A DNA stretch of 43,642 nt from assembly GCA_035540635.1 (NCBI GenBank), contig DATLGH010000063.1, positions 1 through 43,642 on the forward strand, written 5' to 3'. Positions 37,681 through 42,831 of the stretch are shown piece after piece (the stretch's first letter is position 1; each line of letters opens with the position of its first letter). The position numbers were made by a program, and so were the translations under genes. Below the pieces are notes generated by a model. The model was not told the DNA's origin and did no database searches. It saw nothing but the letters and a program-made list of their open reading frames with translations. The stretch is from Egibacteraceae bacterium (GTDB taxonomy: Bacteria > Actinomycetota > Nitriliruptoria > Euzebyales > Egibacteraceae).

Positions 37681-39396
37681 CTAGTCACGCACGGCGACCG
37701 CGCCGGCGGTGCCGTCGACGACGACCAGGGCGCCGTCGGGGATCCTCCTCGTCGCCTCCCGGGTGCCGACCACGGCGGGGATGGCGAGCTCGCGGGCGAC
37801 GATGGCGGCGTGCGACAGCAGGCCGCCGCGGTCGGTGACGATCGCTCCGACGAGGGGCAGGACCGCGTTGAACGCCGGGGTGGTGGACGAGGTCACGAGG
37901 ACGTCGCCCCGGGCGATGCGGTCGAGCTCCGCGGCGCTGCGGATGACGCGGGCACGACCGGTGGCCGTGCCGGGGCTCGCCCCGAGGCCGTGCACGGAGG
38001 CCGCGGGAGCCCGTGCCTCGACCGGCGCCGCCTCCTCCGACATCGCCCGCACGTAGGCACGGAACGCACGCTCGGTGCGGTCAGCGCCTGCGGGGAGCCA
38101 CTCGACGGGTATCGGCCGGCGCGGGGGGTCGCCGAGGACGGTCGGAACCCCGGCCTCCGACGCGTGCTCGCGGTAGTGGGCCCGCGCGGCGAGCTCATCG
38201 CCCGAGAGCCCGGCTGTACCCGCGAGCAACGAGCGGATCTCCTGCCGTCCGGCCTCGACGAGGTGCTCCGGCTGGGCGATGACGCCGGCGTCGGCGAGGC
38301 GGCTGCCCGCGGCGAGGATCGCCCGGCGCGCCAGCCCGTACGCCCACACGTCGCAGTAGGTGGCCCGCTCGTCACGCACCCGGTGGGTGGCCCGCGCCTC
38401 GGCGAGCAGCCCGTCGAAGGCCTCCCGCCTGCTGCGCGGCACGGCGGCCCGCACGCCGCTGAGGCGGTCCGCGAGCTCTTCGGACGGCTCGCTGCGGACC
38501 CGACCGGACCGTGCGGCGCGGATCGTCTCCACGAGGAGCTGCGGCATCTCACGCAGGCACGGCTCTCCCACGTCGGACCCGCTCCCGACGCTCCAGCCGC
38601 CGACGAGGACGAGGTAGTCGCTCGTTGCCGGGCCGACCGGCGGGGGGCGTGCCGTGAGGGCGGCGAGCACCCGTTCCGGGGGCGGGCCGCCGGCGAGCGC
38701 CGCCGCAGCTGCGGGGTCCTCCCGCAGCGCCTCGGCCAGGCGAGCAAGCTGCGGAGCCGCCCCGACCGCCAACGGACCGTCGCCGCGCACGAGCGCCACG
38801 AGCTCACCGTGCGGGCGACCCGTCCACTCGGCGGCGTGGACGAGGAAGTCGCCGGCGGGGACCACGGGAGCGACGTTCAAGCGGTGATGATGGTAGACGG
38901 ACCCCACGAGGTTGTCCCGGCAGCGGTCCACATGGGTTGCGAGCTCCCCCGCGTGGCCGCCCGACGGGGCTGCTGCCTGCAGCGCGAGGTGCCCGCGACG
39001 CAGCCGGGGCTTGGTGTGCTCGTCCCACACGCGCACGTCCTCACGCCACGGCCGGTCGGTGAACACGCGGGCGCTCGTGGCGAGACGGGTGGCGAGCGCG
39101 GGGGTGGCGTCGACGAGGCGGTCCCAGTCCCGCCTCGCCAGCCCGGCGCCAGCCTCGGTCAGGGCGGGCACGGGACGCGGGCAGAGATAGGCCCACCGGT
39201 GCACGAACCCCCATGCGATGTGGTCGAGCAGGAGCCCGTAGCGAGCCGTCGCCTCCTGGAAGCCACGCCGGGCCGCGTCCCCGAAGACCTCGATGACGAA
39301 GTGCGTGGCGGGCCGGGGGAAGTGCGCGGTGTCGAGGCTCCACGCCCCGGGTCCCGGCGGCGCGAACGCCAGGGGATGCTCTGGGCGGCTCGGCAC
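37681..39396 (-). CDS. PEP-utilizing enzyme-like protein without ATP-grasp domain
   Basis: 571 residues, GTG start at 39396. The C-terminal 90 residues are a PEP-utilizer mobile domain with the phospho-accepting histidine in VTDRGGLLSHAAIVARELAIPAVVG, preceded by SPGTATGRARVI. The long N-terminal part (WSLDTAHFPRPATHFVIEVF..., HHHRLNVAPVV) resembles the substrate-binding region of rifampin phosphotransferase-type proteins. The ATP-grasp domain that normally phosphorylates the histidine is missing. So either another protein supplies it, as in split phenylphosphate-synthase-like systems, or it works without phosphotransfer. A phenolic substrate would be consistent with both comparisons. A TATCCT box six bases before the GTG suggests a leaderless transcript. 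Confidence 0.78.
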   Translation of the reverse strand: MPSRPEHPLAFAPPGPGAWSLDTAHFPRPATHFVIEVFGDAARRGFQEATARYGLLLDHIAWGFVHRWAYLCPRPVPALTEAGAGLARRDWDRLVDATPALATRLATSARVFTDRPWREDVRVWDEHTKPRLRRGHLALQAAAPSGGHAGELATHVDRCRDNLVGSVYHHHRLNVAPVVPAGDFLVHAAEWTGRPHGELVALVRGDGPLAVGAAPQLARLAEALREDPAAAAALAGGPPPERVLAALTARPPPVGPATSDYLVLVGGWSVGSGSDVGEPCLREMPQLLVETIRAARSGRVRSEPSEELADRLSGVRAAVPRSRREAFDGLLAEARATHRVRDERATYCDVWAYGLARRAILAAGSRLADAGVIAQPEHLVEAGRQEIRSLLAGTAGLSGDELAARAHYREHASEAGVPTVLGDPPRRPIPVEWLPAGADRTERAFRAYVRAMSEEAAPVEARAPAASVHGLGASPGTATGRARVIRSAAELDRIARGDVLVTSSTTPAFNAVLPLVGAIVTDRGGLLSHAAIVARELAIPAVVGTREATRRIPDGALVVVDGTAGAVAVRD

Positions 39397-39408: not shown

Positions 39409-39522
39409 GCCCCCGGGTAGCCCGGTTCGGGGAGGTCAGTGTTCGGCGCACTTACCAGCCGGCTCCGGGGGACGTACCGTGCGTGGGCGCTGTACGGCAA
39501 TTGCGTTCACAGGGGGCGAGGG

Positions 39523-42500
39523 GTGACCGAGGACGAGGCAGCTCACGAGGACGCGGCAGCGCTCTCGGTGACCCCCGCCGACCGACGCACGCTCGAGGAG
39601 TGGAGCGCCCGCGGCGACGACTCCGCGTTGGCCCGCCGGGCGCGTATCGTCCTGCGGGCGAGCGAGGGAGCGTCGACGAGCCGCATCGCCTGGGAGCTCG
39701 GTGTCAGCCGCCCCACCGTCACCTTGTGGCGTGGCCGGTTCATCGAGGCTGGCCTCGACGGGATCGCGAGGATCAAGCAGGGCCGCGGCCGGCGGTCGAC
39801 GCTGCCGCCGGAGAAGGTCCGGCTGATCCTCGACGTGAGCCACCGACCTCCACCGCCGGGCCATGCGCGGTGGACGGTGCGCGCCATGGCCGCGCATGCC
39901 GGCGTGAGTCCCGACACCGTGCAGCGCCTCTGGCGCGACCACGGCGTCCGCCCGCACGCTGCCCCGGCAACCGCCGTCGGCGAACGTCCCGGAACCGAGG
40001 ACCGCGGTCACGCCCCCATGCTCGTCGACCCGCCGGCGAGCGCCACCGAGCCGGCACACCACCTGCCCGTCCCGTTCAGCAGCTTCGTCGGGCGTCAACG
40101 GGAGCTCAGCGAGGTCGCGGGCCTGCTCGGCGGGACGCGTCTCGTGACCCTGACCGGCGGTCCGGGGGTCGGCAAGACCCGTCTCGCGCTCGAAACCGCG
40201 ACGCGCCTGCTGCCCGAGCGTGCCGGTGACGCCTGCTTCGTCGAGCTGGCGCCCGTCGCCGCTCCCCGCCTCGTCGCCTACGCCGTCGCGTCGGCGGTCG
40301 GCATCCGCGAGCACGCCGGCGAGGAGCTGGCCGAGACGCTCGTGGCCGGGCTGCGCCACCGTCAGCTCCTGCTCGTCCTCGACAACTGCGAGCACGTCCT
40401 CTCCGCATGTGCCGACCTCGTGCAGGCGCTGTTGCCCGCCTGCCCGCACCTCACGGTGCTCGCCACGAGCCAGGAACCGCTCGGCGTCCCGGGCGAGCGG
40501 GTGTGGCAGGTTCCCCCCTTGGCGCTGCCGGCTCCGGACGACAGCTGCGAGGCGCTCGAGTCGTCGGAGGCCATCCGCCTCTTCTGCGAGCGCGCGGGCG
40601 CGCAGGTGGAGACGTTCGCCCTGACGCGTGAGACCTTGGCCGACGTCGCCGAGATCTGCCGGCGCCTCGACGGCAACCCGCTGGCGATCGAGCTGGCCGC
40701 GGCGCGAGCGGGCGCGATGAGCCCTGCCGCGATCCTCGAACGCCTCGAGCAGCGGTTCCGGCTGCTCACCTCCGGTCGGCGAGGCGGTCCTGCCCGGCAT
40801 CGCACGCTCGAGGCGGCCATCGCCTGGAGCTTCGATCTCCTCCCCGATCGTCACCAGACCCTGCTGCGCCGGCTGTCGGTCTTCGCGGGGGAGATCACCC
40901 TCGAGGCGGCCGAGAAGGTGTGCGACGGCGACGGACTGACCGGTGACGTCTTCTACCTCCTCGCATCACTCGTCGAGCGGTCGCTCGTGGTCGCGGAGGT
41001 CGCGGGCCGGCATGCCCGCTACCGCCTGCTCGAGACCATCGGGGCGTTCGCCCGGGAGCGCCTTGTGGAGTCGGGGGAGGCGGACCGGGTGAGGAGCCGC
41101 TTCGTCGCCTGGTGCACCGAGCTCGTCGAGCAGGCCGAGCCCGAGCTGACTGGCGCGACGCAGCAGGACTGGCTGTCGCGCCTGGAAGGCGAGCACGACA
41201 ACATCATCGCCGCCATCGAGTGCAGCCTTGCCGCGGGCCAGGTGGAGCAGGCGCTGCGCATCGCCGGGGCCATGGCGGCCTTCTGGCGCCTTCGCGGCTA
41301 CCTGCGCAAGGGCGCCAACCTCCTCGAGGGATGCCTCGCCGCCGCGGGCTCCGGGGTGCCGGAGGACGTGCGGTTGAAGGCGGCGTGGGGAGCCGGGCTC
41401 CTCGCAGCCATGCTCGGTGACTTCGCCACCGCACAGGTCCGGGGGGAGGAGAGCCTTCGGTCCGCCGAGAGGCTGGGGGACCCCGCCGCGGCGGCGCGGG
41501 CGCTCACGCTGCTCGGCTCCGTCCGGATGTACCGGGGGAGCCCCGCGGCCGCGGCAGAGCTCCTCGAGGAGGGGGTGCTCCGGGCGCGCAGGGCACAGGA
41601 CATGAGGTGCCTCGTCGACGCCCTCGGTCGCTGCGGTCAGGCGCACATGCTTCGCGTCGACTACAAGGCCGCCCTGCCGTTGTTCGCCGAGTGCTACGAC
41701 GTCGCGCGGCAGCTCGGCGACCGGCAGGCGGAGACCTTCGCCCTCGTCGGCCAGGGCTGGGCGGCCATGGACCTCGGCGACGACGCCGTCGGCGAGACCC
41801 GCATCCGCCAGGCGCTGGAGATCGCCCGCGCGCTCGGGGACCGCTTCCGGACGGGGGAGACGCTCGCTTTCCTCGGTGAGCTGTCCCGCCGTCGCGGGGA
41901 CCTGCCGGAGGCGGAGGCCCTCTTCGCGGAGTGCCGCCAGGTCGCCCAGGCCATCCGTGCGCCCCTGCTCCAGGCGCGCTCCTTGGGGGGCCTCGGGCGC
42001 GTCGAGCTCAGCCTGCAGCGCTACGAGGCCGCCCGGGCCTACTTCGACCGGGGGATCGCCATAGCCCGGGAGGTCGGGTTGCCCTATGTCCTCACCCGCA
42101 TGCTGCTCGGGGCCTCCGCCTGCGCGCACGCGCTCGGCGACGACGCCGCAGCGGAGGACCTCCTCGCCGAGGCGCTCGCGCACGCCCGCACGCACGCCGA
42201 TAGCCAGGGGACGGCCACGGCCCTCTATGCGTCGGCGGTATGCGCGCGGAGGAAGGGCTGCCTCGACCGGGCGGCCCTCCTCCATGCGGATGCGCTGCAG
42301 ATGCACGTCGACGCCGACGACACGGAGTCGGTCGCCCGCTCCCTGGAAGGCCTTGCCGGCATCGCGCTCGACCGTGAGCAGTTCGTGTTCGCGGCGCGCC
42401 TGTTCGGCGCCGCCGCCGCCAGCTGGCGCCGGGTGGGCTGCCGGTGCGCGAGGTGGCCGTGGGAGCAGGAGCGCTATGACCGTGACCTCGCCCGCCTCGG

Positions 42501-42831
42501 GCGGGCCCTGCCGGCCGATGCCCTGCGGGCGGCCTGGCACGAGGGGGCGGAGCGCTCCCGCCAGGACGTCGTCGGCTACGCCCTGCGCCGCACCGGCGGG
42601 AGGCGGCGCAGCGCAGAGGGCCGCGCAGGCCTCACCCCCTCGGAGCTGGAGGTCGTCCGTCTCGTGGTCCAGGGGCTGACGAGCCGGGAGGTGGCCGAGC
42701 GGCTGTTCGTGTCACCCCGCACGGTGGACGCCCACCTTGGGCGCATCTACCGCAAGCTGGGCATCCGCTCGCGCCAGCAGCTGCGCGAGCTCGTCGAAGC
42801 CATGCCTGAGCTTCAGCTCACCGGCGCCTGA
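39523..42831 (+). CDS. Large LuxR-family regulator with IS630-type N-terminal DNA-binding domain
   Basis: 1102 residues; AGGGGG before GTG 39523. Four parts. (1) About residues 15-145: an IS630-transposase-type double helix-turn-helix (RARIVLRASEGASTSRIA, ELGVSRPTVTLWRGRFIEAG, WTVRAMAAHAGVSPDTVQRL, ending GVRPH); no DDE nuclease follows. (2) About 185-500: NB-ARC/AAA ATPase with FVGRQREL, TLTGGPGVGKTRLA, LLLVLDNCEHVL, LATSQEPLGV and GNPLAIELAAA. (3) About 520-1000: TPR-like helices. (4) About 1037-1090: LuxR HTH, LTPSELEVVRLVVQGLTSREVAERLF with VSPRTVDAHLGRIYRKLG. Parts 2-4 are the usual actinobacterial ATP-sensing pathway activator. It is the only regulator in the window and so the best candidate for cluster control. 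The extra domain could give a second DNA contact. Confidence 0.9.
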   Translation: MTEDEAAHEDAAALSVTPADRRTLEEWSARGDDSALARRARIVLRASEGASTSRIAWELGVSRPTVTLWRGRFIEAGLDGIARIKQGRGRRSTLPPEKVRLILDVSHRPPPPGHARWTVRAMAAHAGVSPDTVQRLWRDHGVRPHAAPATAVGERPGTEDRGHAPMLVDPPASATEPAHHLPVPFSSFVGRQRELSEVAGLLGGTRLVTLTGGPGVGKTRLALETATRLLPERAGDACFVELAPVAAPRLVAYAVASAVGIREHAGEELAETLVAGLRHRQLLLVLDNCEHVLSACADLVQALLPACPHLTVLATSQEPLGVPGERVWQVPPLALPAPDDSCEALESSEAIRLFCERAGAQVETFALTRETLADVAEICRRLDGNPLAIELAAARAGAMSPAAILERLEQRFRLLTSGRRGGPARHRTLEAAIAWSFDLLPDRHQTLLRRLSVFAGEITLEAAEKVCDGDGLTGDVFYLLASLVERSLVVAEVAGRHARYRLLETIGAFARERLVESGEADRVRSRFVAWCTELVEQAEPELTGATQQDWLSRLEGEHDNIIAAIECSLAAGQVEQALRIAGAMAAFWRLRGYLRKGANLLEGCLAAAGSGVPEDVRLKAAWGAGLLAAMLGDFATAQVRGEESLRSAERLGDPAAAARALTLLGSVRMYRGSPAAAAELLEEGVLRARRAQDMRCLVDALGRCGQAHMLRVDYKAALPLFAECYDVARQLGDRQAETFALVGQGWAAMDLGDDAVGETRIRQALEIARALGDRFRTGETLAFLGELSRRRGDLPEAEALFAECRQVAQAIRAPLLQARSLGGLGRVELSLQRYEAARAYFDRGIAIAREVGLPYVLTRMLLGASACAHALGDDAAAEDLLAEALAHARTHADSQGTATALYASAVCARRKGCLDRAALLHADALQMHVDADDTESVARSLEGLAGIALDREQFVFAARLFGAAAASWRRVGCRCARWPWEQERYDRDLARLGRALPADALRAAWHEGAERSRQDVVGYALRRTGGRRRSAEGRAGLTPSELEVVRLVVQGLTSREVAERLFVSPRTVDAHLGRIYRKLGIRSRQQLRELVEAMPELQLTGA

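Follow-up and report, generated by a model that had tools for sequence, protein, structure and literature searches.

Regulators of the LAL/STAND LuxR and SARP-LAL type, such as MalT, AfsR and PimR, combine an AAA/NB-ARC ATPase with a TPR region and a C-terminal GerE helix–turn–helix (HTH), beside a biosynthetic cluster. PimR has no C-terminal GerE domain (PMC5930380). Members of the family swap their N-terminal modules; among the relatives sampled here the N-terminus carries no module, a cyclase, a BTAD/SARP or XRE DNA-binding domain, or a kinase, and in none of them is it of IS630 origin.

Transposases of the IS630-Tc1-mariner group have an N-terminal half with two HTHs and a linker, and this N-terminal part binds the ends of the element. 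Animal Pax genes are thought to stem from the capture of such a transposase. It is well established that animals have obtained new transcription factors by capturing transposases; in such host-transposase fusions, a regulatory protein carries the DNA-binding half of a Tc1/mariner-type transposase (PMC8290160). In nematode F-box proteins, a captured Tc1/mariner HTH is not involved in transcriptional regulation; a role as a protein-interaction platform has been proposed (PMC12062965). The open-access literature searched gave no bacterial IS630 example of transposase capture by regulators.

The window analysed here, a stretch of 43,642 nucleotides from a member of the Egibacteraceae, encodes a protein with the LAL/STAND build whose N-terminus resembles the IS630 half, including the linker. 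The principle is similar to that of the animal fusions, in a separate event; the host is bacterial, the transposase is IS630 rather than Tc1/mariner, and the partner is a STAND-LuxR protein. The preferred reading, with a probability of roughly 0.6, is that a cluster-situated LAL/STAND activator gained a complete IS630 two-HTH half in frame, and that the captured HTHs provide a second, independent DNA contact.

Gene and domain architecture

The reading frame of the regulator starts with GTG at 39523 and stops at 42831. The segment 39523-39960 (plus strand), to which the first-pass annotation drew attention, encodes residues 1-146. The gene has the following features.

39523..42831, plus strand: regulator gene, 1102 aa; IS630 DNA-binding half, AAA/NB-ARC (STAND), TPR and LuxR/GerE HTH (Pfam, NCBIfam)
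39628..39762, plus strand: first HTH, IS630 type, aa 36-80 (Pfam HTH_23, 2.9e-17; 11/11 near-invariant columns)
39814..39957, plus strand: second HTH, IS630 type, aa 98-145 (Pfam HTH_32, 2e-10; 10/16 near-invariant columns)
39958..40044, plus strand: decayed transposase linker up to DPPASA, aa 146-174, where the catalytic domain would begin (4/17 near-invariant columns; tail similarity p = 0.017; L083 alignment)
40063..40827, plus strand: STAND ATPase, AAA_22/NB-ARC-like, aa ~181-435 (Pfam, match at ~188-435)
41290..42402, plus strand: TPR region, limits approximate (Pfam TPR_12, seven stretches, 2.1e-19)
42631..42783, plus strand: C-terminal LuxR/GerE HTH, aa 1037-1087 (Pfam, 7e-20)

The three hallmarks of a LAL/STAND-LuxR regulator that can be read from sequence are present, namely the P-loop STAND ATPase (AAA_22, 4.9e-7, with the motif GGPGVGKT), the TPR region and the C-terminal GerE HTH. 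By its domain content, the gene at 39523-42831 is a STAND/LAL-type regulator adjoining an NRPS-like cluster. The first 174 codons contain no stops; the codon-position G+C runs continuously across the transposase/ATPase junction, with ordinary bias. PADLOC returned TPR and generic HTH-region matches and nothing else.

IS630 origin of the N-terminal domain

Three Pfam families, proposed for this search by the first-pass annotation, match the N-terminus above their gathering scores: HTH_23 (aa 36-80, 2.9e-17), HTH_29 (aa 39-97, 1.6e-9) and HTH_32 (aa 65-137, 2e-10). The NCBIfam model for IS630 transposases, NF033545, aligns aa 38-152 with positions 1-120 of 299 (80.8 bits, 1.2e-22; the full-model cut-off is 100, and this score falls below it). 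A profile made from ten IS630 transposases of the same class scores 123 bits, with about 30-42% identity between the domain and the class transposases. The two-HTH, paired-like DNA-binding half is recognised by NF033545, by the class profile and in the predicted structure, and the earlier identification of a paired IS630-type HTH at this end of the protein is borne out. These matches are far beyond chance and identify the N-terminal ~174 residues as the part of an IS630 transposase that binds DNA.

Past position 120 of NF033545, neither Pfam nor NCBIfam finds a DDE/D catalytic domain in the regulator; AAA/NB-ARC comes instead. The protein hence has the make-up of a host-transposase fusion, a transposase DNA-binding domain with a host domain and the catalytic domain lost or dead. 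Unlike IS630 transposases, it is present in single copy and is fused to a regulator. No terminal-inverted-repeat-like sites were found in the window, and the CTAGTG-type ends seen in IS630 elements of the class are absent from it (ends of distant subgroups would escape this search). The rest of the genome contains no second or closely similar copy of this fragment. Because its branch is very long (1.9 substitutions per site), the domain cannot be placed within the IS630 tree.

Junction and residue conservation

When the protein is aligned with IS630 transposases from its own class, it begins to resemble them at aa ~11-14, and many of the pairwise alignments extend as far as aa 174. At the equivalent of aa 174, the class transposases have '(G)LYxDPPxxA' right before 'VLCVDEK', where the catalytic domain begins. 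In L083, a transposase from a viral contig, 'GLYVDPPAHA' is aligned against 'PMLVDPPASA' of the regulator, and VDPPASA fits the transposase pattern xxxPPxxA. The tail alone, compared end to end with transposase tails, is similar at p = 0.017. From aa 181 the sequence reads 'LPVPFSSFVGR', a motif of the ATPase family, which places the junction at aa ~174-180. Since transposase homology reaches DPPxxA and the ATPase motif follows from aa 181, the DNA-binding half has been retained in full, cut at the domain border. The first-pass annotation had a domain of ~145 residues running straight into NB-ARC with no DDE domain; the lack of DDE stands, but the homology goes further, to aa ~174 (nt ~40044), in a decayed tail that ends in 'VDPPASA'. 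The C-terminal LuxR HTH that it placed in the same protein is confirmed by the GerE match.

Near-invariant columns were defined from the ten class transposases. The regulator keeps all 11 in the first HTH region (aa 36-97), 10 of 16 in the second HTH (six residues lost) and only 4 of 17 in the tail. For this one sequence, the difference between both HTHs together (21/27) and the tail (4/17) gives a Fisher p of 0.0006. Transposases of other lineages keep far more of the tail: 14/17 in the divergent L083 (with 20/27 HTH columns), 17/17 in L086 and 12/17 in L097. Typical transposase HTH residues retained in the regulator are T65, V66, W69, R70, R72, W117, R120, S129 and W137. Selection on the HTHs is read from the contrast between 21/27 and 4/17, which fits such selection after loss of the catalytic half, in one sequence from one genome.

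An AlphaFold model of aa 1-180, predicted with 13 relatives, has two HTH units and an unordered tail (mean pLDDT 72.6, pTM 0.45); pLDDT is mostly 73-92 over aa 11-140, with a dip near 81-91. In VIA-align, Pax5, Pax6, Prd, SETMAR, Mos1 and Tc3 span both HTHs (95-107 residues) with middling Z scores of 5.1-6.6, and sigma-4 domains fit the first HTH equally well. Foldseek matches to the model have E > 0.001. The likeness of the predicted two-HTH structure to Pax, Prd, SETMAR, Mos1 and Tc3 is suggestive only.

An ortholog lacking the domain

Genome G008, from the same family, encodes the closest relative of the regulator body, which shares 44% identity with it over 938 aa and has a GerE domain. 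Neither this ortholog, whose N-terminus has no HTH, nor the other aligned relatives carry an IS630 N-terminus. Its contig (C28) also encodes a sulfotransferase, an Rv2949c-like protein, an adenylation (AMP-binding) enzyme and a CoA-transferase, with 44-55% identity to those of the window. The two regulator genes also have an upstream element in common.

39446..39480, plus strand: probable promoter, common to the ortholog without the domain; GCGCACTTACC (39446-39456), 18 nt, TACCGT (39475-39480) (sequence match to G008)

Both regulator genes are preceded by GCGCACTTACCNGCC, and TACNNT follows GCACTTACC at a distance of 18 nt. GCGCACTTACCNGCC occurs exactly once in the genome of the window and once in G008, each time upstream of the homologous regulator; the rest of the 21 family genomes searched contain no exact match. 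For the similarity of the two upstream regions, p is 0.001-0.004 when the score takes base composition into account and 0.085 when it does not. The shared element has no match to the sigma-70 consensus. Because the ortholog without the domain has the same probable promoter element upstream, the most likely event is insertion of the domain between promoter/start and ATPase, rather than its loss in G008.

Occurrence of the IS630-LAL fusion

No second IS630-LAL fusion was found in about 760 sampled actinobacterial genomes (66 of the class, 396 of the phylum and 296 of a single genus, the last among the matches listed). In the 66 class and 396 phylum genomes, the search with the N-terminal domain gave nothing but shorter frames, which were interpreted as IS630 transposases or pieces of them. 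A set of 72,556 plasmids contained no such fusion and no place covering 80% of aa 1-241, and viral contigs yielded IS630 transposases and no fusions. These genome searches covered part of the phylum, and the fusion is known from one genome, a draft assembly. An apparent second case over aa 8-239 (G004:C69) is a low-complexity chance alignment in a frame with stops; inspection by eye assigned most of the long open frames that match HTH_32 (L120-L131) to IS481/IS3-like transposases. The first-pass annotation had considered that this N-terminus might be the standard form of a large, already described regulator family. The survey brought up no such family; the ortholog and aligned relatives do without the domain, and the fusion was met once in the genomes sampled.

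The regulator joins an N-terminal DNA-binding module to GerE, whereas the five examined LAL relatives with such a module (BTAD/SARP or XRE) all lack GerE. Two DNA-binding domains in one protein are for this reason unusual among these relatives.

Parallel captures by GntR and ROK regulators

In the 296 genomes of one actinobacterial genus, six frames of at least 600 aa with the N-terminal domain were inspected among the matches listed. The loci are as follows, together with one shorter frame.

L112 1830-3809, plus strand: IS630 HTHs, degenerate DDE and GntR/FCD (sequence comparison)
L113 1872-3725, minus strand: IS630 HTHs, degenerate DDE and GntR/FCD (sequence comparison)
L115 1631-3697, plus strand: IS630 HTHs, degenerate DDE and GntR/FCD (sequence comparison)
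L114 1144-3372, minus strand: IS630 two-HTH N-terminus, diverged middle and ROK-family regulator, 743 aa, one genome (sequence comparison)
L116 2049-3347, minus strand: IS630-like, HTHs intact, catalytic part degenerate, no second domain; shorter frame (sequence comparison)

The three GntR/FCD proteins, from three genomes, share 46-72% identity over almost their full length. Like the regulator of the window, they and the ROK protein are bacterial transcription regulators that begin with the two HTHs of IS630; both forms differ from it in partner and genus, and the GntR forms also in the degenerate DDE remnant between their parts. L116 is possibly a stand-alone domesticated transposase. L117 and L118 were set aside as ordinary transposases with long upstream frames. 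Proteins combining IS630 HTHs with GntR/FCD or ROK are not described in the open-access literature searched.

Across the pairs L113/L115, L112/L113 and L112/L115, the HTHs have dN/dS values of ~0.31, ~0.37 and ~0.36, the dead DDE part ~0.64, ~0.76 and ~0.74, and the GntR/FCD part 0.18, 0.46 and 0.52. As the values for the HTHs lie below those for the dead DDE part, purifying selection holds the transposase HTHs of the GntR fusions while the catalytic part drifts. Since IS630 HTHs are also fused to GntR/FCD in three genomes and to ROK in one, the sequences indicate that bacterial regulators capture such DNA-binding domains recurrently.

Proposed mode of action and alternative explanations

In the proposed mechanism, the bipartite DNA-binding half of an IS630 transposase would have entered in frame between promoter/start and the ATPase domain. 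In keeping with the family, the ATPase/TPR (STAND) part would sense a signal and gate or drive oligomerisation, and the LuxR HTH would bind cluster promoters and recruit RNA polymerase. The captured HTHs may still bind DNA, as a second contact that adds specificity or anchors the regulator near its targets. It is plausible that the IS630 half was exapted for DNA binding, and both the conservation pattern and the parallel GntR fusions speak for this. The first-pass annotation also looked to shared sites upstream of the cluster operons; in this respect it found no support, as no motif common to the regulator promoter and the other cluster promoters of the window rises above shuffles.

The fragment could instead be a passenger at the 5' end of the gene, in frame, tolerated, inactive and decaying, with DNA bound by the LuxR HTH alone as in the ortholog. 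The fusion is present in one genome only, on a long branch and with a decayed tail; the G008 ortholog evidently copes without the domain, and IS630 debris does gather at such genes, as the DDE remnant upstream of a LAL-type gene on contig C67 illustrates. Uniform drift would not predict a first HTH region with every near-invariant residue kept beside a tail with 13 of 17 lost, nor do 174 codons without a stop and with ordinary codon-position bias suggest decay; the HTHs of the related GntR fusions are moreover under purifying selection. This explanation is rather unlikely.

Less probable still, the captured HTHs would mediate contacts between proteins or help the regulator to oligomerise instead of binding DNA. 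The nematode F-box proteins provide a precedent (PMC12062965), and the LuxR HTH already supplies DNA binding. The typical transposase HTH residues are nevertheless retained, and there are LAL relatives whose N-termini carry DNA-binding modules of other kinds (SARP, XRE).

That the domain binds the ends of resident IS630 elements, and thereby represses transposition or couples cluster expression to IS copies, is very improbable. It would agree with the function of IS630 transposase N-termini, and two degraded IS630 copies do lie on contig C77 of the same genome; these copies are, however, distant and fragmented, and the window is free of CTAGTG-type ends. An assembly chimera, in which an IS630 end was falsely joined to the regulator gene of this draft of 110 contigs (IS elements do cause misassembly), is hardly credible, because the domain has ortholog-like sequence on either side (promoter element, ATPase), which would demand two false joins within about 0.6 kb with the frame kept, and because composition is smooth and the genome holds no near copy of the fragment.

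Beyond the in-frame gain of a second DNA contact at this locus, there are about even odds that STAND-LuxR, GntR and ROK regulators independently captured the paired-like half of IS630, as a prokaryotic counterpart of Pax and host-transposase capture, with two unrelated DNA-binding domains controlling a biosynthetic cluster in the present case. The GntR and ROK fusions show that such a capture is not a one-off. A single bacterial family offers both the domain-free state (ortholog, related cluster, same upstream element) and the domain-bearing state for comparison, and how regulators gain a new DNA-binding module becomes testable in bacteria by deletion or transplant of a single domain.

Genomic neighbourhood

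The NRPS-like cluster lies at 1532-36167 of the window and comprises adenylation, condensation and carrier domains, a sulfotransferase, a CoA-transferase, a glycosyltransferase, a class-III aminotransferase and ABC transporters; part of its genes are also found on contig C28 of G008. Divergent from the regulator gene, at 37681-39396 on the minus strand, is a gene for a 571-aa protein whose sole Pfam match is a C-terminal PEP-utiliser mobile domain. On contig C67 of the same genome (L109 3465-6896, plus strand), a further AAA/TPR/LuxR regulator is preceded by an IS630 DDE remnant that is open and in frame with it. That this remnant might be the catalytic counterpart of the captured half was considered and rejected, as its motifs read like those of another IS630 subgroup. 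The C67 regulator probably begins at MLCPVVVGRDAQ, and the remnant there is likely to be debris rather than part of a fusion.
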